Below are positions 1 to 25,491 of a stretch of DNA of 31,166 bases, one piece after another. The first letter of the stretch is position 1. Every line of letters starts with the position of its first letter. The translations under genes and the position numbers were made by a program. Source of the stretch: a virus; IMG/VR virus record IMGVR_UViG_3300030388_001434, positions 1 to 31,166 of that record; one strand, given 5' to 3'. The notes under the pieces were generated by a model. It was not told the DNA's origin. It did not search any database and saw only the letters and a list, made by a program, of their open reading frames with translations.

Positions 1-498
1 CATGCCGCCAGTAGTCAAGTTAGTATCATACGCTATCACGGCACCTTCTAGCAATACACCCGCAAACAGTAGTGGTGGTACGCCTGTGCTCTCAATATCC
101 GAGGGCATCTGCTCTCGAGCAGACCGAATAAGTTGTCTTTCTTTGGTAAGGTTGTCTAGCCCTACCCGCTCTACTACGCGGAAAAATTTACCATTTGAAG
201 CATGTTTTAAAGCACGGATTAATAAAGCACTAGGTTGTTGGGTTACCGCCGTTGAGAACAAAGCAAAGGAACTGTTGCTCTTTCTTTGACCTGTTTGATC
301 TGTAAACGAGTTAGGGTATATAGCTACGATAGGTTTAACCGAAGGGGGTTTTACGTTTAATAAGTCAAAGGACTGTAGTTTTCCTATCTTAACTGCATCA
401 TTAGCCTCAAACCTTTGCTCATAGGTATCGTTAAATTGGTCAACAATCGAACAACTAGAAGTAAAAATCGCCAACAGGAAGGGTAATTTCCGTAACAT
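1..498 (-). CDS. csgG: CsgG-like outer-membrane curli secretion channel (partial, cut by window edge)
   Basis: The 166 visible residues match the N-terminal half of CsgG, the lipoprotein that forms the nonameric outer-membrane pore for curli subunits. The start at 498 gives a short lipoprotein signal: a hydrophobic stretch (LPFLLAIF) ending in TSSC, with Cys16 as the lipidation site. CsgG landmarks follow in order: 'IVAIYPNSFTDQTGQ', then 'FSTAVTQ', 'LIRALKH', 'VVERVGLDNLTKERQLIRSA' and 'LLFAGVLLEGAVIAYDTN', all in the register of E. coli CsgG. The start overlaps the end of the CsgF-like gene by 44 bases, so the F-then-G order of bacterial curli operons is kept. The pore-constriction segment differs from the E. 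coli one (see findings). Family assignment is strong; the role in a phage is unknown. The C-terminal part lies outside the window. Confidence 0.9.
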   Translation of the reverse strand, partial: MLRKLPFLLAIFTSSCSIVDQFNDTYEQRFEANDAVKIGKLQSFDLLNVKPPSVKPIVAIYPNSFTDQTGQRKSNSSFALFSTAVTQQPSALLIRALKHASNGKFFRVVERVGLDNLTKERQLIRSAREQMPSDIESTGVPPLLFAGVLLEGAVIAYDTNLTTGGM

Positions 499-2093: not shown

Positions 2094-5000
2094 TTATGCA
2101 TCAGTAAAATAAAATCCTGATAAACAAACTTTTTTTCCTGAATAAACACTGTTAGCAATATCTGCATTTGAACTATTTCCTATCCCTATGTTTGAGGTAC
2201 CTCTAAGAAAAGGAAAAAATACGTCATCTCTACCAACATCAGTGTTAGCTATTGTTGCCCCATACGCTTGGTCATTTTGATTTCTTACAGGAAAAGGCAG
2301 TCCTGAAAATTGAACAGCGGCAGAGTTAGTGTTACTTGCAAAAGTTACAGCCATTCCTATATGTACTACACGACCAATTTTTGTGTACACAGCCGCATTA
2401 ACAGTGAGTGAAATACCGGCAATACTTGCAGGAGTCCAAGTTCCCTCCTCATAGTCATCCAAAAGCTCACTTGTTCCAGACCCTGCTGTAGCACTAAAGT
2501 CTACACCGTGTCCATTAGCTACTACTAGATTTCCGTCAGCAAGAGTTAAATTAAGACCAACCTTAACGCCACCTCCAAACTCAGCCGAACGAGTTGTTCC
2601 TGAATCTCGCGCAACAACAAAAGGAGTTCCTGCGGCATTGGGAAGTGTGTTCAGACCATTAATTATGTTAGCTCCTCCTAAAACAGCGGCTGTTGCACCT
2701 CCTACAGTTTTAAGAAATATCCCACCATGTTCATCAATTCTCATTCGCTCAGATACGTTCGTAGTTCCTGCCCCACGAGTACCAAAAGACAACTGACCCA
2801 AAACGTTGCCCGAATAATTTGTGTATTTTGCAGATACAGTTGCTAAAGATTCCGCAAAATTTCCTGCGGCTACCCTAAAGTTAAGGGCTGAAAAATGACC
2901 TACTGAGTTATCAGAGTTAGTGATTTCTAAAGCGGCACTTGTAGTACCAAAGCCTGTATCAGAATTGGCTCCAGTAATAGTGACAACATCACGCAAGTTT
3001 GCAGAGCGACCCATTCCAATCTTATCTACGTCACCATTAATGAAGAACATATTATCGTTGTTGTTTGATGCAATGCGGAAGTCAGCGTCTACTCCATTAT
3101 TGTTAATTACAACACCACCCGCACCGCGAATATCTATTAAGCCAGTGCTAGTAGCAAACATCGTTCCAACAGTCTGACTGCCAGAGGCAGAATCCATGTA
3201 TATTGCACCAAGCTCATTAGCACCATTAACAAAACTAACTACACCGCCATCAGCACCATTAGCCGCTGTAGAGCCTAAGTTTAAACGACCACGATTACCT
3301 GTTCCGATAATACCTACATAGGTTCTTGCGGCAGTGTTGTCATTTGTAACATCACCGTCAGCTACGCCTATACCAACGGAGCCTGTTGCGCTATCTACAT
3401 GGAATCTAGGTGTAGTTCCTGACAAATATTGCAAAGAACCTGCTACACCATTCCCAGCATTGATAACTTTAAGTCTGTGGCCTGATGTGTTGACTGCCCC
3501 AGCATCTAGCGTAATTGTAGCGTTTGACGGAGATACAGAGGCTACTAATCCACCACCTGAATAATCATAACTATTTGAATTACTAGGCCCAGCTACAAAC
3601 TGAGTACCAAAGAATTTTAATGTACTTCCATCATCTGCATTGGTGCTATTACGGATTTCAGAGTTCCCTGTTAATCCAATCCCGCCTGTAATTTGTAACT
3701 TTCCGTTTGCTCCTGCCGAAGACGCGCTGTTAATTATTACTCCACTAGAAGTAATATCCATCATCCGCACAGTTGAAACATCAAAGGTATAAGCAGAAGC
3801 CTCAAAGTCAATTCCTGCCCAAGAAGCACTACGGTCAAAGCCTCTTATAACACTACCACCATCAAATTCAATACGCCTACCTGCCCCACCCACTGCAAAC
3901 TGTGCTACTGGATTTGTGGTTCCTATCCCGACCAGACCGTTCAGATTAACTCCGGTTTGGTTGACTACGAGACGGTAAGCGCCTCCATTAGAATCTGCTC
4001 TAAATACTTCCCCAGATGTTGCAACTACTTCTAATCTTGCGTTAGTAGCCGTAGAGTTAATGCCGACATTATTAGTATCTCCATTGACAAACAGCGCATT
4101 AGCGTTGTCCTTAGACTCAACGCGGAAGTCTACGTCTCCACCGGCTTCGTTTAACACCACACTACCCGATGTCATAATTCTAAGAGCAAGGCTATTGTTT
4201 ACTGAACCGATATAGCCATTATTGTTAATAGTTAAATTAGCTAGTTGGCTTGAGTTACTGCCAATATTGCTATTTCCTACAGTAAGCCCTGCGTTTGCTG
4301 TAATTACTCCTGCAAAACTTGCAGTACCGCTATGTGTCATTGCTCCATTTTCATCTATCTTAAATAGCTGTGTGCTATTGTTAGATTGAATATTAAACTC
4401 TCTGTTTGTTTGGTTGTTGTCTGAATCAAACTTTATTAAAACGCTTTGAGTTGACAGAATGTTTAAGTTTCCAGAAGCATTTAGGAATGTGTCAGAAGCC
4501 ACACTAGAATTAAACGTAGCCGCACCTGATGAGTCTATGACAAACCTTTCACCAATCACCCCGCCATTTTCTGTCCAGAAAGAAAGGTTAGAAGCATCTG
4601 CGTTAGTGCTAGTATTTTTGTTGGCAATGTAAGAACGGCCACGACCTACAATACCTAGCGCAATACCGACACCATCTCCTGCCGCTATGTTACTAGTAGG
4701 AACTGTAATGCTAAGACCAAGCGCACTGCCGTTTTCTAAAGTAGTTGCGCTAAGTACGCCAACATCTGCGGCTAAATTTATGTTTGTGCGGGTGGTGCTT
4801 GAAATACCTCCAGTTACAGCTAGTTGTCCAACAACATTTGTAGCATCAAGGTTAGTAACACCGTCTACGTCTATGTTGCCGCTAATGTCTAAGGATGTTG
4901 CTATAATATTCCTACTAGCGTCTATGACTGTATTTCCAGAAATGCCAATAGAAGATGCAACATTTAGAGAGCTACCCATAGTTATCGCTGTATTGAATGT

Positions 5001-7651: not shown

Positions 7652-8866
7652 TTAAACAGCAATCTTCTGCTTGATGATTGCTTCTGGAAGGATAACCTGT
7701 CCACCAACTCTGCGACGAGCAATATAACGAATATTACCAGTGTTAGCTTGGGTGAATGGGTCGCGTAGTACAGCCATAGCAACACGATCAACAATTAAGT
7801 ATCCACGACGGAAATCACCAAACGCAACAGGGAAGTTTCCACCTGCGATAGACGGCATATCCGTAGCTTCTACATAGCTGTGACCTAAGATAGTTGCAGA
7901 CATATTTCCAGACAGGCTCATGCCAGCTTGGAAGACGTATTGACCTGCGGCATCTTTCAACTTACGAATAGCCGCTAATGAACCACGGTTAAAGACGAAA
8001 GTACCATTACGGCTATAATCACTCTTAATGGCGTGAACCATTGTGATGAGGCCATCAGCAGTTAGTAGCGTACCTGAGCCAGAGTTGCTTTCAGCAACAG
8101 AAGCGTTAGTCAGGATACCTTCAGGCTTACCTACAGCGTTACCAGAGACAAAGGCTAATCCTTCGGCTTTAGCGAACTGCTCAGTAAATTCTGACTGCAT
8201 TTCAGCTTCAAGATTAAATACTGAATCTTCCAAATCCTGCTCAGAAATATCAACCAGTGCATACATCTCATGCGCGGGAATCTCTTCTAGGCCAACTTGC
8301 CATCCAGTAGTCTCTGAACGTGTTCCAGCTTCGGATACCCACTGCGCGGCAAAAGTACCAGTACGCTTAGGAATCTGAATAGAACGCTGTCCAGTTTGAC
8401 GAACGCGAGAAATGCCACGAATAGGTGAGATCTCTGTAATGTTCTTAATCAATTCACGGATGTACTCTGGGGGAGCTAAGTAACCACCAGTTGTATCGTT
8501 AGATACAGTTAGTGCTTTCTTCTCATCTGGAGTAATTCCTTCCATACCTTTACGGCAATAAGAATCAAAGGCTTTAACGCCAGCATCAATTTGCTTATCG
8601 GTGAAACCACCGTTGGGACGACGCATAACAGTTTCCATGCGATCCATCTGCTCTTTGATAGCATCTTGAGTTGCGGCACTAGCTTTAATACGCTGATTCA
8701 CATCTTCGTACTGGTCTAGCTTCGCTTCAAGGGCGGTAATTTTCCCATCTAGGGTAGTGTCTTGGACACCTTTTTCCACGTTCTCTAACTTCTGGTCATA
8801 GCTTTTTTTGAACTCTTCAAAAGCATGTCCCATGTCAGATACTAGGGTTTTAACATCTTCACTCAT
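7652..8866 (-). CDS. Major capsid protein, HK97 family
   Basis: 404 residues. About residues 1-85 form a charged coiled-coil delta/scaffold domain ('KLENVEKGVQDTTLDGKIT', 'KEQMDRMETVMRR'). The HK97 fold starts near residue 125 ('TTGGYLAPPEYIRELI') and includes the N-arm/E-loop region ('RSIQIPKRTGTFAAQWVSE'), 'VDISEQDLEDS', 'SGNAVGKPEGILTN' and a C-terminal beta region ('GDFRRGYLIVDRVAMAVL'). Its ATG overlaps the protease stop (ATGA), and GGGAG lies upstream. In HK97 the delta domain is removed by the neighbouring protease; cleavage between about residues 85 and 125 is expected here. Confidence 0.95.
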   Translation of the reverse strand: MSEDVKTLVSDMGHAFEEFKKSYDQKLENVEKGVQDTTLDGKITALEAKLDQYEDVNQRIKASAATQDAIKEQMDRMETVMRRPNGGFTDKQIDAGVKAFDSYCRKGMEGITPDEKKALTVSNDTTGGYLAPPEYIRELIKNITEISPIRGISRVRQTGQRSIQIPKRTGTFAAQWVSEAGTRSETTGWQVGLEEIPAHEMYALVDISEQDLEDSVFNLEAEMQSEFTEQFAKAEGLAFVSGNAVGKPEGILTNASVAESNSGSGTLLTADGLITMVHAIKSDYSRNGTFVFNRGSLAAIRKLKDAAGQYVFQAGMSLSGNMSATILGHSYVEATDMPSIAGGNFPVAFGDFRRGYLIVDRVAMAVLRDPFTQANTGNIRYIARRRVGGQVILPEAIIKQKIAV

Positions 8867-9849
8867 TGGATTTCTCCCACTATGGTTTTGAGTTTTTGGG
8901 TTAGGTTTTTGATAGCATCTACATCAGGTTGCATTTCTACCTCAGCATCACGCTGAGTAAACGCATCCATTACAGCTTTTGCGGCCATCTTTGCTTCTGA
9001 ACGAGATAAAGAAAAAGCGTCACGCAGTCCATTCTCCCATTCCCTGATAGAAAGCTCCTGTCCCTTAACCGCCTGAACCTTAGCTTTAGGATTCATTGGA
9101 AAGGTAACAACAGATATCTCCATCAATTCTACTTCCTTGATAACTCTGGCTCCTGCCTTATCATAGGATTGCCCCTTGGGGCTTATTCTGAAACCAATAG
9201 ACAGGCCATCAAGTGCGCCCATTTTCATTAGTTCGTATGTCTCTCGTCCAAGCTGGGTTTTCATAGCCAAACGGCCACGAATTTTTAAACCCTTCTCGTC
9301 CTCTTCAATAGACTCATATACGCCAATAGGCATATCTGATTTGTGTTGGTATAGAAGTTTGACCCCTAATGCGCCTGTCTTTTTAACGCTCTTGCTGAAA
9401 GCACCTTTAGCAACAATGTCATTGCCTAGATCGGTGTTACCAAAGATAGAGCCGTAACCTTCAAAGGTTCCATACTCCTCATCCTCAGAGTCAACCGCAT
9501 TTATCTCAGCCTTAACATCTAAGAACTGGTCTAGGGTTTTCTCCTCGCTCTCGGCATCCTTCTTTTTGGGCTTCTTAGGTTTTTTTGGCATACCGTAGCC
9601 GCTTAACTCTAATCCAGTTAGCTCAGTATATTCTTCATGGCTCTCGCAAGGCATGAATACTAGGTTGCCATCTTCATCGTGAGAGTGAGTGCCGACACAG
9701 CCGATTTCCTCAGCCCTATCTTGAGCTTCCTCTTCCGTGGAGAACACATCATCTCTAATCTCTGCTTTCTCAGCTAGGGATGCAGTCAAGGCTTCAATAG
9801 CGGCCTGTATATCCATAGGCTCAGGGTCTTTTTTGATTTCTTTCAACAT
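8863..9849 (-). CDS. Prohead maturation protease with N-terminal Cys/His domain
   Basis: 328 residues. About residues 115-265 form an HK97 gp4-type (S78/U35) prohead protease. His169 in 'LLYQHKSDMPIGVYES' and Ser217 in 'GALDGLSIGFRI' are the expected catalytic pair, with the third residue probably in 'ELMEISVVTFPMNP'. Before this lies a separate domain (about 30-85) with Cys51, His55, His57, Cys68 and His71 in 'GCVGTHSHDEDG' and 'FMPCESHEEY', which looks metal-binding, joined by a Lys/Pro-rich linker. It matures the capsid encoded immediately downstream (4-base overlap). No strong ribosome site precedes 9849; a second Met at 9816 is possible. Confidence 0.9.
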   Translation of the reverse strand: MLKEIKKDPEPMDIQAAIEALTASLAEKAEIRDDVFSTEEEAQDRAEEIGCVGTHSHDEDGNLVFMPCESHEEYTELTGLELSGYGMPKKPKKPKKKDAESEEKTLDQFLDVKAEINAVDSEDEEYGTFEGYGSIFGNTDLGNDIVAKGAFSKSVKKTGALGVKLLYQHKSDMPIGVYESIEEDEKGLKIRGRLAMKTQLGRETYELMKMGALDGLSIGFRISPKGQSYDKAGARVIKEVELMEISVVTFPMNPKAKVQAVKGQELSIREWENGLRDAFSLSRSEAKMAAKAVMDAFTQRDAEVEMQPDVDAIKNLTQKLKTIVGEIQ

Positions 9850-10830: not shown

Positions 10831-10846
10831 GTGCTATACTAAACGT
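10831..10846 (+). promoter_or_regulatory. Rightward cassette promoter (extended -10)
   Basis: TGC followed by TATACT (10835-10840) and AAAC, identical in its core to the divergent leftward promoter. There is no good -35 at 17 bases, so it probably relies on the extended -10. The leader runs into ATAAAAGGTG before the ATG at 10879. Confidence 0.6.
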
Positions 10847-11221: not shown

Positions 11222-11455
11222 ATGTCAAAGCCAACTATAAACTTTAACCATCCTATTGCAGACGAATACTTTTACCTATCGCGCCACAATGTAGGGTTTG
11301 GCTTATCTACCATTGAGCAAGATGAAGTCCTAGATGATTACTACAGCGGTAGGCTAACCAGCAATCCAGCGCAAAATAAAATAATGCAAAAGTCTCGTTT
11401 TGAGGCTCTTAAACATGCCCTAATTCTTATGGGTACTAACGGCCAAGGCGGTTAA
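11222..11455 (+). CDS. Hypothetical cassette protein, 77 residues
   Basis: 77 residues (MSKPTINFNHPIADEYFYLS onward) with ATAAAAGGTATTAAAT before the ATG, the same leader as the leftward cassette genes. It is acidic at the N-terminus and helical toward 'QKSRFEALKHALILMG'. Last gene of the rightward cassette unit; a terminator follows within 10 bases. No family recognised. Confidence 0.6.
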   Translation: MSKPTINFNHPIADEYFYLSRHNVGFGLSTIEQDEVLDDYYSGRLTSNPAQNKIMQKSRFEALKHALILMGTNGQGG

Positions 11456-11461
11456 CCAAAA

Positions 11462-11487
11462 GAAAGCCCCTTTTAGGGGTTTTCCAT
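11462..11487. terminator. Bidirectional terminator after the rightward cassette
   Basis: AAAGCCCC, a short TTTTA loop and GGGGTTTT form a GC stem with T-rich tracts on both sides: TTTT on the plus strand, CTTTCTTTT on the minus strand. It ends the rightward cassette and could also stop leftward transcripts leaving the Mu F-like gene. Confidence 0.75.
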
Positions 11488-11489
11488 CT

Positions 11490-11945
11490 TTAAAAGTTTA
11501 GACGCGATTTGGCGACTCTAAAAAATTACAAATTTTCTGACCACCCAAAACCCCATCAAATTCGTAACTTCTTTTTTTGACACGCTTTTCGGCCTCTAAA
11601 AATTTTATAAATTTCTGACAGCTTGAAAACACCGTCAAATATTTAACTAATTATTTCAGAGCGTTTTCGCGCACCTTAAAAAATGAAAATCAAAACACCT
11701 CCTCTACAGGCCACGCGGTTACTGGGCTGTAGAAACTAATTCCTTTTGCTTCGTTTTTTGAAAGTTTGGGCGAAAATAAATTTATTTGATAGGGGGTGTG
11801 AAATTCTTGCAACTCTTTTTCGTTTAAAAAGTTTTTTCGTTTTTCGGGGCATTTTCAAACGGATTCAGGCATCGGCTAAAATTCTGACCAACTCTTTTGC
11901 TCTTAAAAAGTTTTTCCGTTTTTCGGGGGGTCAAAAAAATGAAAA
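11490..11945. repeat. Noncoding module A: degenerate repeat array with about 79-bp period
   Basis: A gene-free stretch between convergent genes. Unit landmarks: a CTCTAAAAA...TTTCTGAC element at 11516 and 11595 (79 apart) with a weak third copy near 11674; a hairpin with CTACAG (11704-11709) and CTGTAG (11727-11732); then a CAACTCTTTTTCGTTTAAAA element at 11810 and 11889 (79 apart). The last element forms a weak AT hairpin followed by T-runs on the plus strand. The same elements occur in the same order and spacing in module B (22005-22465). No credible coding sequence is seen. Possible roles: tandem terminators, an RNA 3' region, or a replication or packaging site. Confidence 0.7.
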
Positions 11946-12812
11946 TTACACATCTTCGTAATCGTCTATATCAAAATCATCCTGAACCGAATCTCTTGTG
12001 TCCGTGTAGATCACAACGCACCGACAGTTGCACACATTGACAGCCCCGCCTCTTGGGTCACCAGCGTAAGACATTGGCCTACCCCCGATAATGAAATCTT
12101 CATCCATTGATACCTGTTGGCCATTGGCTCTAGCGTGAGTTTCCCTAGTCCGACCATCTCCTGTAGAGACCCATTGCTTGACCATAGCCACTCCATAGTT
12201 ATCGCCTACCTGCTTATGGTAGCTCTGATGCGCAAAGCCAGCCGCGCTATGAGTCTCAGTTCTAGCGATTAAAGCCGCCCTATTGCGGTTGATTGAGCGG
12301 AAGTTCTTTCTTAGCTCACTCGCAATCTGTGCCAAAGTAGCGTCCCCTAGCCTTAATTTCTCTATAGATGCAATGATTAGCAAGCCCTGTGTGCGTGAAA
12401 TGCTACTTATGAAGCTCTCCCTGTTAATGAAGTACAGAGCGACGGCCTGTTCAAAGGCTGATGACCTTCCAAAGAAGAAAGCATCCCCCTCATCGGCTTT
12501 TGCAGATATTACTTGATAGGATTGGTAGTTGTAATCGTAGATAGCTTTGAATATTCGGCTTAACTGGGCTTTAATTACTGCGGTAACTTCTACCTCTACA
12601 TCTCTGACAAGCAAAGCGGCATCCACAACCTCCCCGCCCTCTACTTGCTTGGATGCTATGTTTACCGTCTTGTTGAAGCTAGTCTCTAACCGCCTTTGGA
12701 ATCCCCTACTTAGATTATCCCTTATCCTAGCTTGTTGGACAGCGTAGCGCCTAGCATTGATAGCGCCCTGCCTAAACCCTAGAATCTGATTGGCGGTTTG
12801 TTGCCTAGCCAC
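11946..12812 (-). CDS. Mu F-like (SPP1 gp7-type) minor head protein
   Basis: 288 residues. The N-terminal two thirds are helical. The C-terminal part holds the Phage_Mu_F signature: 'LIARTETHSAAGFAHQSYHK', 'KQWVSTGDGRTRETHARANG', then YAGDPRGGA and NVCNCRC. These minor capsid proteins bind the portal and help head assembly or DNA ejection. It starts 4 bases after the portal stop, so it is translationally coupled. Module A follows its stop, cutting it off from the protease gene that usually comes next. Confidence 0.9.
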   Translation of the reverse strand: MARQQTANQILGFRQGAINARRYAVQQARIRDNLSRGFQRRLETSFNKTVNIASKQVEGGEVVDAALLVRDVEVEVTAVIKAQLSRIFKAIYDYNYQSYQVISAKADEGDAFFFGRSSAFEQAVALYFINRESFISSISRTQGLLIIASIEKLRLGDATLAQIASELRKNFRSINRNRAALIARTETHSAAGFAHQSYHKQVGDNYGVAMVKQWVSTGDGRTRETHARANGQQVSMDEDFIIGGRPMSYAGDPRGGAVNVCNCRCVVIYTDTRDSVQDDFDIDDYEDV

Positions 12813-16462: not shown

Positions 16463-17044
16463 TTAACCGTTACCGTTATTTTCTATCTTTTCCGAATCTT
16501 TAAATTCTTTCTTAATTCGTATCTGGTGTTTTGTTACCCATGCTTTGTTATATTCGGTATCTGCAAAGAGCTTAGAGAATCCAGTGATATGCTTTAACCT
16601 AAGCAACTCATCAGGTTCCATCCCTAAGTGGTTACATACCTCTTCATCCTTCCAACCGTTATCAAGCATAGAGAATACCATACTGGACATGCCACTTACT
16701 GAGTGCTGTCCCCTTGCCCTATTGTGCCTAACTGTAGCGGCCATTCTTTCATTAATATCTTTCTTGATTACAACTATTGGAACCCTACCTTGAGTGGTGT
16801 CAAATATATCCTTGTTGTTCTTACAGGTAAAGTATCTGTGGAAGCCGTCAACAATCACATACTTCTTTTTTTCTTCATCGTAGATTGTAACTATAGGCTG
16901 TGTATAACCATCGTGCTTGATTGAGGTATGTAGCAATTTCATCTCTTGCCCTGCAACTGAGTTAGGGTTGTAGTCGTTTGGCTCTACGTCATCAACAGAA
17001 ACCCATAAAACATCGCTAATTGGTTGGTTTGGTATATCACTCAT
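16463..17044 (-). CDS. IbrB-like ParB/Srx-domain protein
   Basis: 193 residues. A ParB N-terminal (ParB/sulfiredoxin) fold is visible: 'VDDVEPNDYNPNSVAG', 'HDGYTQPIVTIYDEEKKK', 'YVIVDGFHRYF' (the nucleotide-binding box), then 'TVRHNRARGQHS' and a helical part with 'DGWKDEEVCNHLGMEPDE'-like HTH character. IbrB, first described with IbrA as an activator of eib genes in E. coli, has this domain, and the two are encoded together. Here it overlaps the IbrA-like gene by 8 bases. ParB-fold phage proteins can be NTPases or nucleases; the substrate is unknown. Confidence 0.8.
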   Translation of the reverse strand: MSDIPNQPISDVLWVSVDDVEPNDYNPNSVAGQEMKLLHTSIKHDGYTQPIVTIYDEEKKKYVIVDGFHRYFTCKNNKDIFDTTQGRVPIVVIKKDINERMAATVRHNRARGQHSVSGMSSMVFSMLDNGWKDEEVCNHLGMEPDELLRLKHITGFSKLFADTEYNKAWVTKHQIRIKKEFKDSEKIENNGNG

Positions 17045-18215
17045 GGGTAGTGCCTCTCTGATGTGGCTTTATGAACCTAAGGTCTCTCTCTGGACGATTC
17101 CAGTTTATTTCTAACCCCCTTTTGAATTTAAGAAAATTAATTGTTTCTGGTCTACCAAGAAAGTTGGATATTTTTGCAAACTCAAAATCATTGGCAAGTA
17201 TCCCTAGTATCTGGGTTTTGTACATTTCATGGATGTTATTCATATCACTAAACTTTCCATCCATCCATAAATGCTTTTTCTCTAGCTTTTTCCTTATGCC
17301 ATCATCTTGTATTAGATTGTCGCAAAGGTGGTCTCTGTACTCCCTCCAATCTTTAAACATAAACGGCAACTCATTAGCCCTAAACATTTCATTTTTTTTC
17401 ATATGCTTAGTTTGATTAATGCCTTTAAGTCTTTTAGTTAACGCATTCCAAGTGTCACCCTCTAGCTCATGCAAATAAAATAACTGATCTACAGCCGTTT
17501 CATGGTGAAGGTTGCTCACCCGCATTTTTATTGGGGCTATCCCATACCTATAAAACTCGTCATATATTTTGCAGTAATCCCAACTGTGGTCGTGAATTGC
17601 TTTCCAAATATCGGTATAGCTCCAATCATACAAAGGATAGAAAACATAATGGCCTTGCTTCTCATCGTAGACCTTGCCATAGGTTATATCTTTATAGGTA
17701 GCCCCATTAGTCAAACCTGCTCGTCTGTTTGGGCTTTCCTCTGCTCTGACACCCCCTAGTAAAGCAACTGACTTACCCTTGTAATGCTTTGCCAGATACT
17801 TGGGAAACATATTATAAAAGCGATCAGTACCGTAAGTATTTTCTTTGATGCTTATAGGGTCTTTCTCCCTCATGTGTTCTTCATTTAAATCCCAGCAGTT
17901 CAACCAAGGGTAATCCATAGTGGTCGCATTAAATAATTTGATAGGCACCTGTAGCCAGTGAGGGGTCACTTCGTCGCGGTACATGACCCTTTTAACGTAA
18001 TCAACAACAGCTTGCCACTCGGCCTCTTGGTCAAGCATCATCACTGTAAGGGGTAATTTGCCCTCTTTCTCAGCAACTAACAGCGCCATTTCAAGCGTTA
18101 CGGTGCTATCTTTGCCCCCACTAAAGCTAACTACCACTTCATCAAACTCTCGGAACAAGAAAGTAATTCTTTCAATGGCTTGGTCAAATACGTTATCTTT
18201 TAGAAAAATTTTCAT
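17037..18215 (-). CDS. IbrA-like PP-loop enzyme (PAPS reductase/ATP pyrophosphatase family)
   Basis: 392 residues. The PP-loop 'VVSFSGGKDSTVTLEM' (about 29-44) binds ATP as in PAPS reductases and thiolation enzymes; 'ALLGGVRAEESPNRRAG' and 'YPLYDWSYTDIWKAIHDHSW' are typical of the IbrA (DUF3440-type) subgroup. The C-terminal 120 residues are helical and basic, unlike classical CysH, and no CysH-type C-terminal catalytic Cys motif is seen. It overlaps the second methyltransferase-like gene by 4 bases and the ParB-like gene by 8. Members could adenylylate and sulfur-modify a nucleic acid or act as regulators; the phage role is open. Confidence 0.85.
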   Translation of the reverse strand: MKIFLKDNVFDQAIERITFLFREFDEVVVSFSGGKDSTVTLEMALLVAEKEGKLPLTVMMLDQEAEWQAVVDYVKRVMYRDEVTPHWLQVPIKLFNATTMDYPWLNCWDLNEEHMREKDPISIKENTYGTDRFYNMFPKYLAKHYKGKSVALLGGVRAEESPNRRAGLTNGATYKDITYGKVYDEKQGHYVFYPLYDWSYTDIWKAIHDHSWDYCKIYDEFYRYGIAPIKMRVSNLHHETAVDQLFYLHELEGDTWNALTKRLKGINQTKHMKKNEMFRANELPFMFKDWREYRDHLCDNLIQDDGIRKKLEKKHLWMDGKFSDMNNIHEMYKTQILGILANDFEFAKISNFLGRPETINFLKFKRGLEINWNRPERDLRFIKPHQRGTTHE

Positions 18216-20420: not shown

Positions 20421-20466
20421 AAATTATGTAGAGAGAAAGAAACCAACCCATAAAAGGTGCTTGAAA

Positions 20467-21495
20467 ATGTTAAATTTACCAGTAATTAGCAACAAGAGTT
20501 TCGGAATTGAAGTTGAGTTTGTTGGCGCTTGCCCTAGGCACGTTGCCCAAGTTATAAACAGCCTTGAGGGTGTTGAATGTTCTTATGCTGGCTACACTCA
20601 CCTTACAACTAGCTACTGGAAAGTTGTCTACGATGGCTCTTTAAGCGGTGTTCGCGGCCATGCTGGTGAGCTGGTTAGCCCAATTCTTAACGGTGTTGAG
20701 GGTGTTAGAGAGTTAGAGCGTGTAATTGAGGCGCTCAATTCTGTAGAAGGCGTTACTGTAAACCGTAGCTGTGGTTTGCACGTTCATTTAGATTGCCGTG
20801 AAATGAACATTAACGAAATCAAAACTACCTATGAGCGGTACTCAAACCATGAAGAGCAAATTGATCTTTGTATGCCCCGCTCTCGCAGAGGAAGCCCTCG
20901 CTGGTGTGCCAGCACTGCAAGCGTAAAGAACGCTGTTAAACGCGCAACGTGTAAGCCTAACGCGGCTAGAGCCGCAGAGCGTTACTACAAAGTAAACCTC
21001 ACTAACATAGCCAGCAGAGGCTCTATTGAGTTTCGCCAGCATAGCGGAACAACTGAGTTCAAGAAAATTGTGAACTGGCTTTCTTTCCTAATGCAGTTTG
21101 TTGAGAGTAGCATCCAGATGGCTGGCTCAACAGCGGTCAAGCCTAGTGCATGGTATGCACAGCTTAAAACTTTAGTAGGAAAGTGGGGCGGTGATTTTAG
21201 TTATAGCAAGTCTACTAGGAGCTGGAATGTTGTTAAAAACGGAGTCTTAGTAACTAGGCTGTCTAATTGCCAAATCTCAGAGCTATATGTTAGCGGTTCT
21301 GCAATGAAAGCAAAAGGTTTGCGCCCATTGCACCAGTTAGAGAACCTGCTAGAAGTATACGGCCTCCCTTACTCTGAGCTTATGGCCGCTGTAAGCAACC
21401 CTGTTACAGTCTCAGAAAATGATCAAGGCGTTTACCACGGCATAACTACCCAAATCCAAGATTACCTGAGAGAGCGCCAAGAAGAGCTTTCTTAA
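20467..21495 (+). CDS. Amidoligase-family (COOH-NH2 ligase, glutamine synthetase-like) enzyme
   Basis: 342 residues from the ATG at 20467 (AAGGTG 7 bases upstream; an in-frame TTG at 20461 is too close to that site). Amidoligase_2 motifs are present in order: 'FGIEVEFVG' (12-20), 'DGSLSGVRGHAGELVSPIL' (56-74), 'SCGLHVHLDC' (101-110), 'ERYYKVNL' (about 176) and 'GSIEFRQHSGT' (about 189). These correspond to the metal/ATP-binding Glu, His and Arg residues of the glutamine synthetase fold. The family is predicted to join carboxylates and amines into amide or peptide links. Its partner gene downstream is a gamma-glutamylcyclotransferase, so a gamma-glutamyl-type bond is a plausible product. Confidence 0.88.
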   Translation: MLNLPVISNKSFGIEVEFVGACPRHVAQVINSLEGVECSYAGYTHLTTSYWKVVYDGSLSGVRGHAGELVSPILNGVEGVRELERVIEALNSVEGVTVNRSCGLHVHLDCREMNINEIKTTYERYSNHEEQIDLCMPRSRRGSPRWCASTASVKNAVKRATCKPNAARAAERYYKVNLTNIASRGSIEFRQHSGTTEFKKIVNWLSFLMQFVESSIQMAGSTAVKPSAWYAQLKTLVGKWGGDFSYSKSTRSWNVVKNGVLVTRLSNCQISELYVSGSAMKAKGLRPLHQLENLLEVYGLPYSELMAAVSNPVTVSENDQGVYHGITTQIQDYLRERQEELS

Positions 21496-21530
21496 ACCCA
21501 AATTAAACAACCCAAAAAGGAAATATCAAG

Positions 21531-21962
21531 ATGAATACAATAACTGAATACTTATATGGGGCTTATGGCTCCAACCTTAACAAAGACCAGATGGAGTTCA
21601 GATGCAAGAACGCTACGCCTGTGAAAAGCTATACGCTGAAGGGACACGCGCTAAAATTTAGAGGGGTTGCCGATGTAGAGGTATCTACAGATGGAAGCTC
21701 TGTTCCACTAGGATTGTGGAAGATAACAAAAGATTGTGAAAAGAGCCTTGATAGATACGAAGGATACCCTAACCTGTACGTTAAAAAGTTTATTGAGACA
21801 GAGCATGGCTTAGTTATGATTTACATTATGCGAAACCAAGATAGCCTATACCCACCCTCCAACTACTACCTTGACGGAATTGCTACAGGATATTATGATT
21901 TCTCGCTAGACAACAGAAAGCTCAAAGATGCTGTTACAGATAGTTATTTAAACCAGCAATAA
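21531..21962 (+). CDS. Gamma-glutamylcyclotransferase-like protein (AIG2/GGCT fold)
   Basis: 143 residues. The fold signature 'YGAYGSNLNKDQM' (9-21) binds the gamma-glutamyl group, and Glu77 in 'LDRYEGYPNLYVKKF' is the expected catalytic acid. These enzymes release 5-oxoproline from gamma-glutamyl amines or peptides. AAGGA lies upstream, and the gene starts 35 bases after the amidoligase stop, so the two form one transcription unit ended by a strong terminator. In amidoligase gene clusters GGCT proteins are thought to reverse or trim the amide bond. The cellular target (peptidoglycan, polyamine or protein tag) cannot be read here. Confidence 0.85.
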   Translation: MNTITEYLYGAYGSNLNKDQMEFRCKNATPVKSYTLKGHALKFRGVADVEVSTDGSSVPLGLWKITKDCEKSLDRYEGYPNLYVKKFIETEHGLVMIYIMRNQDSLYPPSNYYLDGIATGYYDFSLDNRKLKDAVTDSYLNQQ

Positions 21963-21969
21963 AACCAAA

Positions 21970-22001
21970 CCCCACTAGCTGACTACTAAGTGGGGTTTTT
22001 T
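21970..22001 (+). terminator. Rho-independent terminator of the amidoligase operon
   Basis: CCCCACT (21970-21976) pairs with AGTGGGG (21989-21995), followed by TTTTTT and further T-rich sequence. It lies 7 bases after the GGCT stop; the opposite strand also ends in a T-rich tract. Confidence 0.85.
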
Positions 22002-22004
22002 CTC

Positions 22005-22465
22005 TTCTTTTTTAAACGCGCAATTAGACCCTAAAATATTTTATAAATTTCTGAGACCCTTAAAACAGCATCAAAAAAATTACTTAATTATTTAGACCTA
22101 AGTTTGACCTCCAAAAAAATTGTAAATTTCTGAAGCCTTAAAAACCAGTCAAAAAAAGTAAGTTGTTTTTATTGGACTAATTCAAGCCCCTTCAAAAATG
22201 AAAATAAAATGTCACCCCCTGAAAGCCCCGTACTTAAAGGGCTGTAGAGTAGCGTGTTTTTACTTTAGGTTTTCAAAAGTTTCAGCCATTTTTTTATTTA
22301 TTCAGCCATCAACTAAAAAAAACGCAACTCTTTTTCGCTTAAAAAGTTTTTTGCTTTTTTCGGCAACATTTTAAATTATTCGCTAGTCCTATAAAAATTT
22401 GATCAACTCTTTTTCGTTTAAAAAGTTTTTTGGTTTTTGGAGCGCATTTTAAAATGGTTTTTTGT
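22005..22465. repeat. Noncoding module B: paralogue of module A
   Basis: A gene-free stretch between convergent genes with the same elements, order and spacing as module A. The CTAAAA...TTTCTGA element is at 22030 and 22109 (79 apart), followed by 'TTCAAAAATGAAAATAAAAT' near 22191. Next is a hairpin AGCCC/GGGCT (22224-22243) ending GGGCTGTAG. The CAACTCTTTTTCG element is at 22325 and 22404 (79 apart). A 28-base block at 22404-22431 is identical to 11810-11837. From first to last landmark the module spans 374 bases, against 373 in module A. No coding sequence is credible here. Confidence 0.7.
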
Positions 22466-22822
22466 CTACTTTAAATTTCTTAGACTTACCTGTCGTGATC
22501 TTTCCGTTTCCCATTTAGCCTCTGATATTCTTAATATCCTTTTGGCTGTCTCAGCCCTTACCGATAAAGTTTGAGCCTCAAGATACCTTCCCTCCCAATC
22601 GTTATGGGTTCTCACCAACCCCTCAGCCATAACCCCTGATGCCTTGTTTCTCATATGCGCCATCTTGATAGCGGCCTCCCACGCTTTAAAGCTAGATTCA
22701 ACCTCAATATATCTAATTTGAGCCGCCTCATAGTTAGCAATTGCGTCCTCCCAAACTTCAATGCATTTATCAAGAGGGTCAGACCTTAGGTTTTGTGTAT
22801 AAGAATTGTTTTCACCATTCAC
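22466..22822 (-). CDS. Small helical phage protein, unknown
   Basis: 118 residues, almost entirely helical and charged: 'CIEVWEDAIANYEAAQIRYI', then KMAHMRNKASG, then 'LRISEAKWETERSRQVSLR'. The pattern resembles a small helical protein often found beside phage replication genes. Its start overlaps the XRE regulator by 11 bases. Last gene of the leftward replication operon, facing module B. Function unknown. Confidence 0.6.
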   Translation of the reverse strand: MNGENNSYTQNLRSDPLDKCIEVWEDAIANYEAAQIRYIEVESSFKAWEAAIKMAHMRNKASGVMAEGLVRTHNDWEGRYLEAQTLSVRAETAKRILRISEAKWETERSRQVSLRNLK

Positions 22823-23060
22823 GTCGTTTTCTCCTTAGCAGTTCATCCATACTTACATCAAAGTAATCAGCTAACGTCTGCACAGTCGTAACTCTTGGGT
22901 TGCATCCAGACAAGGTTCTGCTGATAAGTGGTTGGCATAGGTCTGTAGCCCTAGAAATATCGCTCTGGCTTACTCCATGCTCTCGCATCAATCTGACAAC
23001 ATTTGTTGAAAGGGCGTTTAACCTTGATAATTCTTTTTCCGTCTTTTTCATTTTTTTCAT
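22812..23060 (-). CDS. XRE-family DNA-binding regulator
   Basis: 82 residues with a classic HTH_3 domain: 'LMREHGVSQSDISRATDLCQ' is helix-turn-helix and 'PLISRTLSGCNPRVTTVQTL' completes the bundle, ending 'YFDVSMDELL'. It overlaps the nuclease gene upstream by one base and the helical protein downstream by 11 bases. Position inside the replication operon rather than at its promoter suggests an autoregulatory or anti-repressor role, but no operator can be assigned. Confidence 0.85.
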   Translation of the reverse strand: MKKMKKTEKELSRLNALSTNVVRLMREHGVSQSDISRATDLCQPLISRTLSGCNPRVTTVQTLADYFDVSMDELLRRKRREW

Positions 23061-23395
23061 TATTTTCTCTCCGTTTTTATTAAGTATTTAATATCATGTA
23101 TCACGTTTTCGCTTATCTGGCTGGTTGTATATCTTAAGACTCGCCACCCACCCATCATTGCTGTGTTGTACTTAATCAGATCAGCAGAATACCCTGACCC
23201 TCTTGTATGCCGTCCATTAGCATAAACACCCCCCTCAACCTCAACCGCAATTTTTAGCATTGAAGGAAAGTCCCCTATCACAAAGTCAAACCGCCACTTT
23301 CTTATATCGTGAAACCTAAACTCTCTGTGATAAGGTATTTTGTAGTGCCTAAGCAATATGCAAAGCGTTTCCTCGCCTTTTGAACTAGCGGCCAT
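23060..23395 (-). CDS. PD-(D/E)XK/Vsr-like small endonuclease
   Basis: 111 residues from the ATG at 23395 (GGAGGG 7 bases upstream), overlapping the helicase stop. The core 'KWRFDFVIGDFPSMLKIAVE' then VEGGVYANGRHTRG gives the D...E-x-E arrangement of the Vsr/DUF559 nuclease fold, and 'KYNTAMMGGWRVLRYT' completes it. Such stand-alone nucleases are common in phage replication modules, where roles in junction resolution or mismatch nicking are proposed. Confidence 0.75.
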   Translation of the reverse strand: MAASSKGEETLCILLRHYKIPYHREFRFHDIRKWRFDFVIGDFPSMLKIAVEVEGGVYANGRHTRGSGYSADLIKYNTAMMGGWRVLRYTTSQISENVIHDIKYLIKTERK

Positions 23396-25097
23396 TACCA
23401 CGCCCTCCGTATCCGTAATCTTCGTTAGGAGGCTCTACAAACGTCCTACTGGCAAAGTCAAAGTTAAACGTAGCCTCGCCTATCTGTCCGTACATTCCTT
23501 GCTCTCTAATCTTCCTCGTTATCACTTGAATACTGTTGTTATCAAAATCTCTATGAACCACTACCACCGCATCAGCTTGGTTGTGCCAGTGAGCCGCGCC
23601 ACTAATATCGTATGCGCTGGGCGCTTGGTATCCGTTGTTCTCTTTTTGTAGCTTGGTAGGATGGGCAACAACCCACGTTGTAATATCGTGCATCTTACAA
23701 AACCGCTTGCACTTGCTAATAAAATCTCGGATATGCTCGTCTTCCCTATAGCTACCCTTTCTACTTGCATCAACCTCGTTATAAGGGTCTATAACAATGC
23801 CATTGCATCCGTACTTTTGTATGCTCACCTTGGCAAGCTCAAGAATCTTATCCACGCTGGGTATATGCTCTCTGGTTTCAATAAAGAAAAAATGCTTTTG
23901 TATCCAGCGCATACCTTCGGTTGCCTCCTCCTCTGTCATTCGCCCATTGAAGCCTTGGTCAAAAGGTTTGCCAGTAAGCATTTGCAACAACCTCCTGATA
24001 TGCATTTTTGTGGAATGCTCTGGAGAAAACATTACAAATTTCCAATCGTGGTTTTTTGCAAGCTGTATCAAGCACTGGTCTAAAAATGTACTCTTGCCGT
24101 GGTTCGGGATGCCTGTCCAAACATGGAATGTTCCCTTCATAACCTTGTAAATTTTATCAAGGTTTGCGTACCCAACATTTACAGGCTTATCGTAATTGCC
24201 TCTGTATAAGTCCATCACCTCATTGTAATAAGTGCCTACCGTATAAAGCCCATCAACTGGACAAGGCCGCGCATTAGTTATCAGGTTGTGCAAGTATTCC
24301 TTGCCATGCTTTATAAGAACATCGTTAGCGTCTTTGCAATCTTCTGGAGGAACCACATACCAGCACTTTACTTTTCCATATCTATGCATCAGCTCCTTCT
24401 TTAAATTGTCACCAGCACCATCAGCATCACAAAATAAAACAATCTTATTTGCTTTTAGTGGATGGGTTTGTAAGCACTGAAATCTCTTGTCGTTTTCCTT
24501 GTAGGAGGTTTTAGCTGGCGCACCATCTGGCAAAGTAGTCACGCATGTAAACCCGCATTCGTGAACGCTCAAGGCATCCATTTCACCCTCTACAAAAATC
24601 GCCACATTTGATTCAGCCACCGCTTTGTAATTATATAAAGATTTCACTGGGTCTTTGCTTTGCTTGAATCTCTTATCTTTATGCCTGTATTTTATATTGT
24701 CACACTGCCCTGACTCCCCATTGTAAGGAAAGCCTATCCATTCATCATTTTCAGAAAATACCTTAAATGCTTCATAAGTCTCTTTTGAAATACCCCTCTT
24801 CTCAAAATAATCATCTAAGAAAGTTGAGGTGTTTGCGATGTTAGGCGTAAAAGATTTTCTCTGAGGAACTGTTCTTTTTTGTGTGCCAGTTAATGCGCTT
24901 TGCTCCATTACTCCTCCCTTGTTTTCGCAGTGGTGACAAAAGAACACAACCTTATCGTGAGATATTTCCACCGACATTGGCCTATCATGTGAGTCGTGAG
25001 GTGGTTGGCACTCTGGACATTTTATTTTGTGGTTTCCTTCATCTAAGTGGCCTATTTTAAGGCCATGCTTTTCAAACGCTTCATCCAGCAAGGTCAT
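23385..25097 (-). CDS. Bifunctional DNA primase-helicase (T7 gp4/Twinkle-like)
   Basis: 570 residues from the ATG at 25097, which has AAGGAGA upstream; longer frames run back into the initiator-like gene. Zinc-binding primase domain: Cys27, Cys30, Cys54, Cys57 ('KCPECQPPH', 'FFCHHCENKGG'). Toprim: Glu170 ('VAIFVEGEMDALSV') and Asp224/Asp226 ('KIVLFCDADGAGDN'). RecA-like helicase: Walker A 'WTGIPNHGKSTFLDQ' (about 327-341), Walker B 'GIVIDPYNEVDASR', H4 region 'WVVAHPTKLQ' and 'ISGAAHWHNQADAVVVVHRD'. It would synthesise primers and unwind DNA at the phage fork. It overlaps the initiator-like gene by 17 bases. Confidence 0.93.
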   Translation of the reverse strand: MTLLDEAFEKHGLKIGHLDEGNHKIKCPECQPPHDSHDRPMSVEISHDKVVFFCHHCENKGGVMEQSALTGTQKRTVPQRKSFTPNIANTSTFLDDYFEKRGISKETYEAFKVFSENDEWIGFPYNGESGQCDNIKYRHKDKRFKQSKDPVKSLYNYKAVAESNVAIFVEGEMDALSVHECGFTCVTTLPDGAPAKTSYKENDKRFQCLQTHPLKANKIVLFCDADGAGDNLKKELMHRYGKVKCWYVVPPEDCKDANDVLIKHGKEYLHNLITNARPCPVDGLYTVGTYYNEVMDLYRGNYDKPVNVGYANLDKIYKVMKGTFHVWTGIPNHGKSTFLDQCLIQLAKNHDWKFVMFSPEHSTKMHIRRLLQMLTGKPFDQGFNGRMTEEEATEGMRWIQKHFFFIETREHIPSVDKILELAKVSIQKYGCNGIVIDPYNEVDASRKGSYREDEHIRDFISKCKRFCKMHDITTWVVAHPTKLQKENNGYQAPSAYDISGAAHWHNQADAVVVVHRDFDNNSIQVITRKIREQGMYGQIGEATFNFDFASRTFVEPPNEDYGYGGRGNGR

Positions 25098-25491
25098 TTT
25101 TTGTTCTCCTTCTTGTTTGTGGGGGGTTTCTAATATGTATAGGTAATGTATTGGAGGACGCTGGTGTCCTAGGGGGGTGGACACTGGTGGCCTGAGTAGG
25201 GTGGCCACTGGTGTCCGCAGGGGGGTGGACTCTGGTGTCCATGCCTAACTTATATAGGTTGGTTGTTCCCAATCTTTTTTGAACTGTAATATACTCAAGC
25301 TCCTCAAGAGAAGCGATGCACCTACGCACTGATCTATCAGATACTCCGCATATTTCTGCAAGGTGTTTTTCAGATGGGTAGCACTTATGAGTTCCCTTTC
25401 TCGCATAGTTTGCAAGCATAAAAAGAACTAGCTTTGTGGTTGGGGTGGGGCAAGGTAATAACCTAACCCAATTTATTGCGTCTGTACTCAT
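25081..25491 (-). CDS. Replication initiator-like winged-helix protein (lambda O-like)
   Basis: 136 residues. N-terminal winged helix: 'PTTKLVLFMLANYARKG', then 'PSEKHLAEICGVSDRSVRRC' and 'SLEELEYITVQKRLG', as in phage O/DnaD-type initiators. The C-terminal part (about 84-120) is a low-complexity Pro/Thr/His region with an 8-residue repeat (DTRVHPPA, DTSGHPTQ, ATSVHPPR) encoded by a 24-bp DNA repeat that looks like an origin array. The stop overlaps the primase-helicase start, as expected for an initiator feeding a helicase. A palindrome covers its ribosome-site region. Confidence 0.75.
   Translation of the reverse strand: MSTDAINWVRLLPCPTPTTKLVLFMLANYARKGTHKCYPSEKHLAEICGVSDRSVRRCIASLEELEYITVQKRLGTTNLYKLGMDTRVHPPADTSGHPTQATSVHPPRTPASSNTLPIHIRNPPQTRRRTKNDLAG
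25161..25248. repeat. Iteron-like 24-bp tandem array inside the initiator gene (candidate origin)
   Basis: CTGGTGTCC-type units start at 25161, 25184, 25208 and 25232 (spacing 23, 24, 24). Each full unit carries an inverted repeat. In unit 1 it is GTGTCC with GGACAC; in unit 2 both arms have changed together to GTGGCC and GGCCAC. Iterons inside an initiator gene are the arrangement of lambda ori in gene O. Moderately AT-rich DNA (TATATAGG region, about 25250-25300) lies beside it. Confidence 0.6.

Follow-up and report, generated by a model that had tools for sequence, protein, structure and literature searches.

The DNA analysed here (the window) is a virus record of 31,166 bases from a tailed phage, and this contig is a fragment. 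Its minus strand carries the structural genes, including MCP (7652-8866), protease (8863-9849), head morphogenesis (11946-12812), portal, TerL, and TerS, as well as a replication operon (22466-25491). Short plus-strand operons lie between the main minus-strand blocks. Next to the head-morphogenesis gene we found an intergenic element of about 435 bp (element A), and self-comparison of the window showed that the same region matches again beside the replication operon (element B). The positions of both elements and of their parts are listed in table 1. At a third junction (window 290-454), no such array was found. In addition, the window includes auxiliary genes at 17037-18215 and 20461-21962 (PAPS-reductase-like, amidoligase, and gamma-glutamyl cyclotransferase) and a promoter-like motif (TGCTATAATAAAC.. 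then ..AAAAGG), which is repeated at 10832, 11022, and 28715 ahead of plus-strand genes.

Table 1. Positions of elements A and B, their parts, and the neighbouring hairpins in the window
Feature	Position	Strand	Context
GC hairpin CCCC-TTTTA-GGGG, terminator-like	11467..11479	.	between + gene 11222-11455 and element A
Element A, ~435 bp core	11490..11928	+	directly 3' of minus-strand head-morphogenesis gene (11946-12812)
Left unit 1 of A, AAAAAATTACAAATTTTCTGA core, imperfect palindrome	11497..11574	+	direct repeat, reverse-complement profile
Left unit 2 of A, TTTGAC..AAATTTTATAAATTT..GTCAAA imperfect palindrome	11575..11654	+	
AAAATGAAAAT motif in A	11680..11690	+	
Central inverted repeat of A, TCTACAG..CTGTAGA	11703..11733	+	
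Right unit 1 of A (CAACTCTTTTTCGTTTAAAAAGTTTTTTCGTTTTTCGGGG)	11810..11849	+	
Right unit 2 of A	11889..11928	+	exactly 79 bp past right unit 1
GC hairpin CCCCACTAG..CTAAGTGGGG + T run	21970..21995	.	after + gene 21531-21962, left of element B
Element B	22004..22440	+	directly 3' of minus-strand replication operon (22466-25491)
Right units 1 and 2 of B, 79 bp apart	22326..22438	+	

The initial annotation had described positions 11490-11945 as a degenerate noncoding array with a period of 79 bp, and our results showed that a periodic array is really present there. The left units form a direct repeat (11497-11541/11575-11619) with a spacing of 78 and 73% identity, and the right units form another (11810-11849/11889-11928) with 90% identity. 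Thus, the spacing of exactly 79 proposed for the right units (11810/11889) holds. For the left landmarks (11516/11595), the repeat was recovered with a spacing of 78; the two values differ because one base is gained within the unit. The proposed central hairpin (CTACAG..CTGTAG) was found as well. Tandem Repeats Finder, with a minimum score of 30, did not report the array, which indicates that it is truly degenerate. What the initial annotation overlooked is the second copy, the palindromes in the left units, and an AA/TT sub-period of about 13.2 bp.

Elements A and B share the same layout: a pair of palindromic units on the left, a pair of units on the right, and between them the AAAATGAAA block and a central inverted repeat. 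Over 412 bp, their identity is 61% and the alignment contains no indel. In the multiple alignment, 160 of these 412 positions differ with zero indels (160-175 substitutions over the aligned core), and pairwise realignment over 434 positions gave two gaps of 1 nt. The left units are imperfect palindromes, and the element profile matches its own reverse complement across the left half, with E-values of about 1e-9 to 2e-15 in A and in two further lineages (C and D) and of about 1e-5 to 1e-4 in B.

A pattern of the right unit was matched to viral contigs. Ten contigs matched, and whenever both right units matched, they were exactly 79 bp apart. Type A was found beside the head-morphogenesis gene in L004, L005, L006, L008, L009, and L013 (and in L010 with the left flank only), and type B in L007, L008, L011, and L012. 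Protein searches added two types at the B site, C (L031) and D (L033), and one at the A site, E (L083). The comparison therefore covers five lineages (A-E) and few complete genomes, and some contigs recur under other locus numbers (e.g., L049 is the contig of L033). A motif-to-hairpin pattern recovered only known members among viral contigs. A looser two-unit pattern matched 44 contigs, and none besides the known loci fit the element profile. Named phages gave no match save one AT-rich match of 51 bp with B, and plasmids gave no match to the element.

The presence of the element varied among relatives. The initial annotation held that absence from close relatives would count against the array; the A copy is kept in all near-identical relatives found (L005, L006, L008, and L009), whereas relatives at a greater distance (L027, L028, L029, L030, L032, L035, and L036) have an empty B site. 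The A site is also empty in the phage carrying lineage D and in L018. Thus, the element is dispensable. At the B site of L034, there is only a remnant of about 60 bp (3686-3762), and it resembles a single unit in which both ends of the element have been fused. Meanwhile, the orientation is the same everywhere, directly 3' of the same two minus-strand operons at both sites. The location of A between convergent genes, as annotated, is correct. However, lineage E has co-directional neighbours, the next gene being a protease in the same direction as head morphogenesis, so convergence is incidental and not a requirement. The GC hairpin at 11467-11479 is outside the element proper and absent in L004 and L013, where the plus-strand gene abuts the element directly. 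In L004, a G-rich tandem repeat (GGGGGGGTAGGTTA, about four copies) lies at 12697-12780 between element A and the head-morphogenesis stop codon. In L049, around 8640-8830, the amidoligase-GGCT operon is missing, and the last codons and the terminator of GGCT persist left of element D.

The period of the array was found across the family. Over lags of 30-200, the top self-match was at 79 in A (0.456) and B (0.45) and at 78 in C and D, and in each of these four lineages, none of 500 dinucleotide-preserving shuffles reached the observed value. The shuffled control suggested by the initial annotation thus did not produce similar self-similarity. The lag of 78/79 was the top self-match in all five lineages, and that of E was not above its shuffles.

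In addition, the length of the element is kept although its sequence has drifted. Identity between lineages is 44-60%, and the aligned core is 431-434 nt in A-E, that is, a difference of no more than 3 nt over about 433 bp. By pairwise alignment with one aligner, the element has about 0.005-0.035 indel events per substitution. Two other intergenic regions of the same phages, with the same aligner, have mostly 0.01-0.1 (typically near 0.025 and 0.065), so the contrast is clear but moderate. The most distant lineage pairs are near the limit of alignability, since shuffled pairs also reach about 50% identity; the gap letters number 79-181 in shuffled pairs versus 1-41 in element pairs. Furthermore, 91 columns are invariant in all five lineages, where about 4 would be expected by chance (an estimate from base composition). 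As many as 83 of them are A or T, a share that the AT-rich composition partly favours. The longest block invariant in all five lineages is AAAATGAAA, at the AAAATGAAAAT motif. The element has stops in every frame and its substitutions lack 3-periodicity, so it is noncoding. This phenomenon, in which length and phase are held while half of the letters are lost, points to shape as the target of selection, something that ordinary similarity searches would miss.

The phase is seen most clearly in the AA/TT dinucleotides. Their top period is 13.3-13.4 bp in A-D and 13.2 bp in E, by spectral statistics against dinucleotide shuffles, which also break the repeats. The arithmetic of the repeat agrees with this (79 = 6 x 13.2). 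The signal of about 13.2 bp resides in units 1-3 and is seen inside most single left units of A-D, and thus does not arise from the repeat as a harmonic alone. Lineage E and the right half show it weakly. Because AA and TT are mutually in phase, the periodicity is a property of the duplex and not of one strand. In 240-bp windows across the 31-kb window, the strongest 13-bp signals all fell within A and B. Meanwhile, the 10.5-bp AA/TT power is near zero in the elements, and the static curvature predicted by a wedge model is unexceptional. Duplex-symmetric phasing, AT-dominated conservation, and fixed length together point to a DNA read by its shape. The suggestion of the initial annotation that periodicity without coding potential implies a function in DNA gains support from the lack of an open frame and of 3-periodic substitutions, from the phasing, and from the conserved length.

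Several other explanations should be considered. One is that the element acts as a structured RNA, namely the minus-strand 3' UTR of the late and replication operons, whose tandem hairpins would stabilise the mRNA, take part in its processing, or give rise to a small RNA. The fixed orientation relative to the operon would fit, and on the minus strand, the left half of every sequence tested is more stably folded than its shuffles (z -1.3 to -5.9). The dyad pairs are 83% standard compared with 28-65% when slid, with some changes on both sides. However, the right half has z about 0 or above on both strands, the covariation term of RNAalifold is unfavourable (+1.2 to +1.4), pairing decays in D and E, the conserved positions are A/T and not the G/C of stems, and there is no Rfam match. 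Mismatches of the G-U type (14) and the A-C type (19) are about equal, so neither strand is the pairing strand. Since none of RNAalifold, unit folds, helix enumeration, and pair counts supported RNA in a strand-specific way, we regard this explanation as unlikely. Tandem intrinsic terminators or decoy hairpins between convergent genes, also put forward in the initial annotation, are highly improbable. The right units do show weak A/T hairpins followed by T runs, but no GC stem with a U run occurs within the units, nothing inside A or B is terminator-like, the sole such structure near A is the flanking GC hairpin, and lineage E is outside the convergent setting. No promoter of note was found within the element. 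A Rho-dependent terminator would need the Rho hexamer to sit on plus-strand RNA with six steps of about 13 nt per 79 nt or so and to halt antisense transcription into the operon. Rho rut footprints have a scale of about 78-80 nt and a step of about 13 nt, and the element resembles them in both numbers. Its position is also suited to antisense control, and the left half has more C than G on the plus strand in A, B, and C. The bias is reversed in D and absent in E, however, so that the C-over-G bias of rut sites on the terminated strand is not seen in all members. It is AA/TT and not the YC dinucleotides that show the 13-nt periodicity, and the conserved columns are A/T. Unlike rut sites, then, the element lacks a C-over-G bias shared by all lineages as well as a YC periodicity, and this explanation is very improbable.

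The element could also be a replication origin, a packaging site, or a genome end, which AT-rich tandem palindromic repeats generally resemble. We consider this most unlikely. Inside the O-like initiator gene (25156-25240), there are 24-bp iterons (GGACACTGGTGTCC..GGGGGGT, 3.6 copies), which are conserved in L012, L030, L032, and L033 and are likely to be a lambda-type origin. They are the better candidate and persist in phages that have no element. A lambda-type origin has its iterons in or beside the initiator gene in all relatives, whereas the element is absent in some. The two copies in this genome, with none at the same sites in some relatives, also speak against packaging. A non-autonomous mobile element or a recombination linker, spreading between intergenic sites and marking the borders of exchangeable modules, is somewhat less improbable than a structured RNA but still doubtful. 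It would account for two related copies in one genome, for the remnant of about 60 bp in L034, and for the fact that L031 has the element while L030 and L032, each 95% similar to it on one side, do not. In the recombinant L031, the junction is the element. However, neither terminal inverted repeats nor a target-site duplication, as in MITEs and insertion sequences, were seen when filled and empty sites were compared with each other by eye. Separate lineages occupy the two sites, so the copies look inherited and not freshly moved. An insertion undergoing decay would not usually keep so strict a length. Recombination also has its border at this junction in pairs of phages that lack the element. 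As to the mosaic structure of L031 (1-10777), its replication side is about 93-95% like L032 and its late side about 95% like L030, with the junction exactly at element C; neither of these parent-like phages has the element. A recombination hotspot was rejected, for identity shifts at the B junction also occur in element-less pairs.

We tentatively propose that the element is a nucleoprotein boundary at the DNA level at the ends of phage operons, which would operate much as phi29 p6 sites do. This is a possibility that we favour without holding it probable, and the wrapping by protein is inferred from the sequence pattern. A phage or host protein would read the phasing of A/T tracts in the duplex through the minor groove and not a strict sequence. 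It would wrap the left half with about six contacts per turn of about 79 bp, and further A/T sites would be available on the right. The complex could then be a roadblock or an insulator that separates one transcription unit from the next, or transcription from replication, and the modules on either side might be swapped or carry added genes without interference. The place of the element after operon stops, together with the plus-strand genes that abut it without a hairpin in L004 and L013, suggests a transcriptional or replication barrier; it is position that suggests the roadblock role. Against the boundary explanation, there are phages with the same junction and no element. Among 20 ORFs scanned with Pfam, most of them small, none had a p6-, HU-, or H-NS-like match; a sequence search can miss p6-like proteins, and this contig represents only a fragment. 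More doubtful is the broader idea of a new class of phage DNA element, in which a nucleoprotein scaffold would be encoded by geometry alone (fixed length, turns of about 79 bp, six AA/TT contacts per turn about 13.2 bp apart, and nearly free sequence drift) and would serve as an orientation-specific boundary at operon ends. The element fits none of the known families tested, and the mechanism is offered as a hypothesis. If the element is wrapped by protein, it would be a natural boundary part between exchangeable phage modules. Whatever the role, a homologous family with two genomic positions and five lineages is a directly testable set.

Finally, the element can be compared with known systems. 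Mycobacteriophage stoperators are repressor sites that are short, asymmetric, and dispersed across the genome. The element would be similar as repeated protein-binding DNA at the ends of transcription units, if the binding we propose is right, but it is one long composite at two sites. REP/BIME sequences are palindromic extragenic repeats of bacteria with hypothesised roles in supercoiling and termination (PMC3733652). The element shares the palindromic extragenic repeats; however, REPs are palindromes of 20-40 bp in many copies per genome, whereas the element is about 435 bp, AT-rich, and fixed in overall length, with two copies in the window. The closest likeness is in phage p6 regions. In phi29, p6 touches the minor groove at intervals of 12 bp, following bendability and not sequence, with 63 bp wrapped per turn; its periods exceed 10.5 bp (12 bp in phi29 and 11 bp in GA-1), and the wrap is right-handed (PMC10899789). 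Both the p6 regions of phi29 and GA-1 and the element are phage DNA with bendability phasing at a period above 10.5 bp, which in the element is the top AA/TT period of 13.2-13.4 bp in five lineages. The wrapping is known for p6 and is proposed for the element. The element differs in its period of about 13.2 bp and its repeat of about 79 bp, compared with 63 bp per turn for p6, and in lying at internal operon ends and not at genome ends. If it is indeed wrapped by protein, the element would be a further case, beside phi29 p6, of a bendability code other than 10.5 bp in phage DNA.
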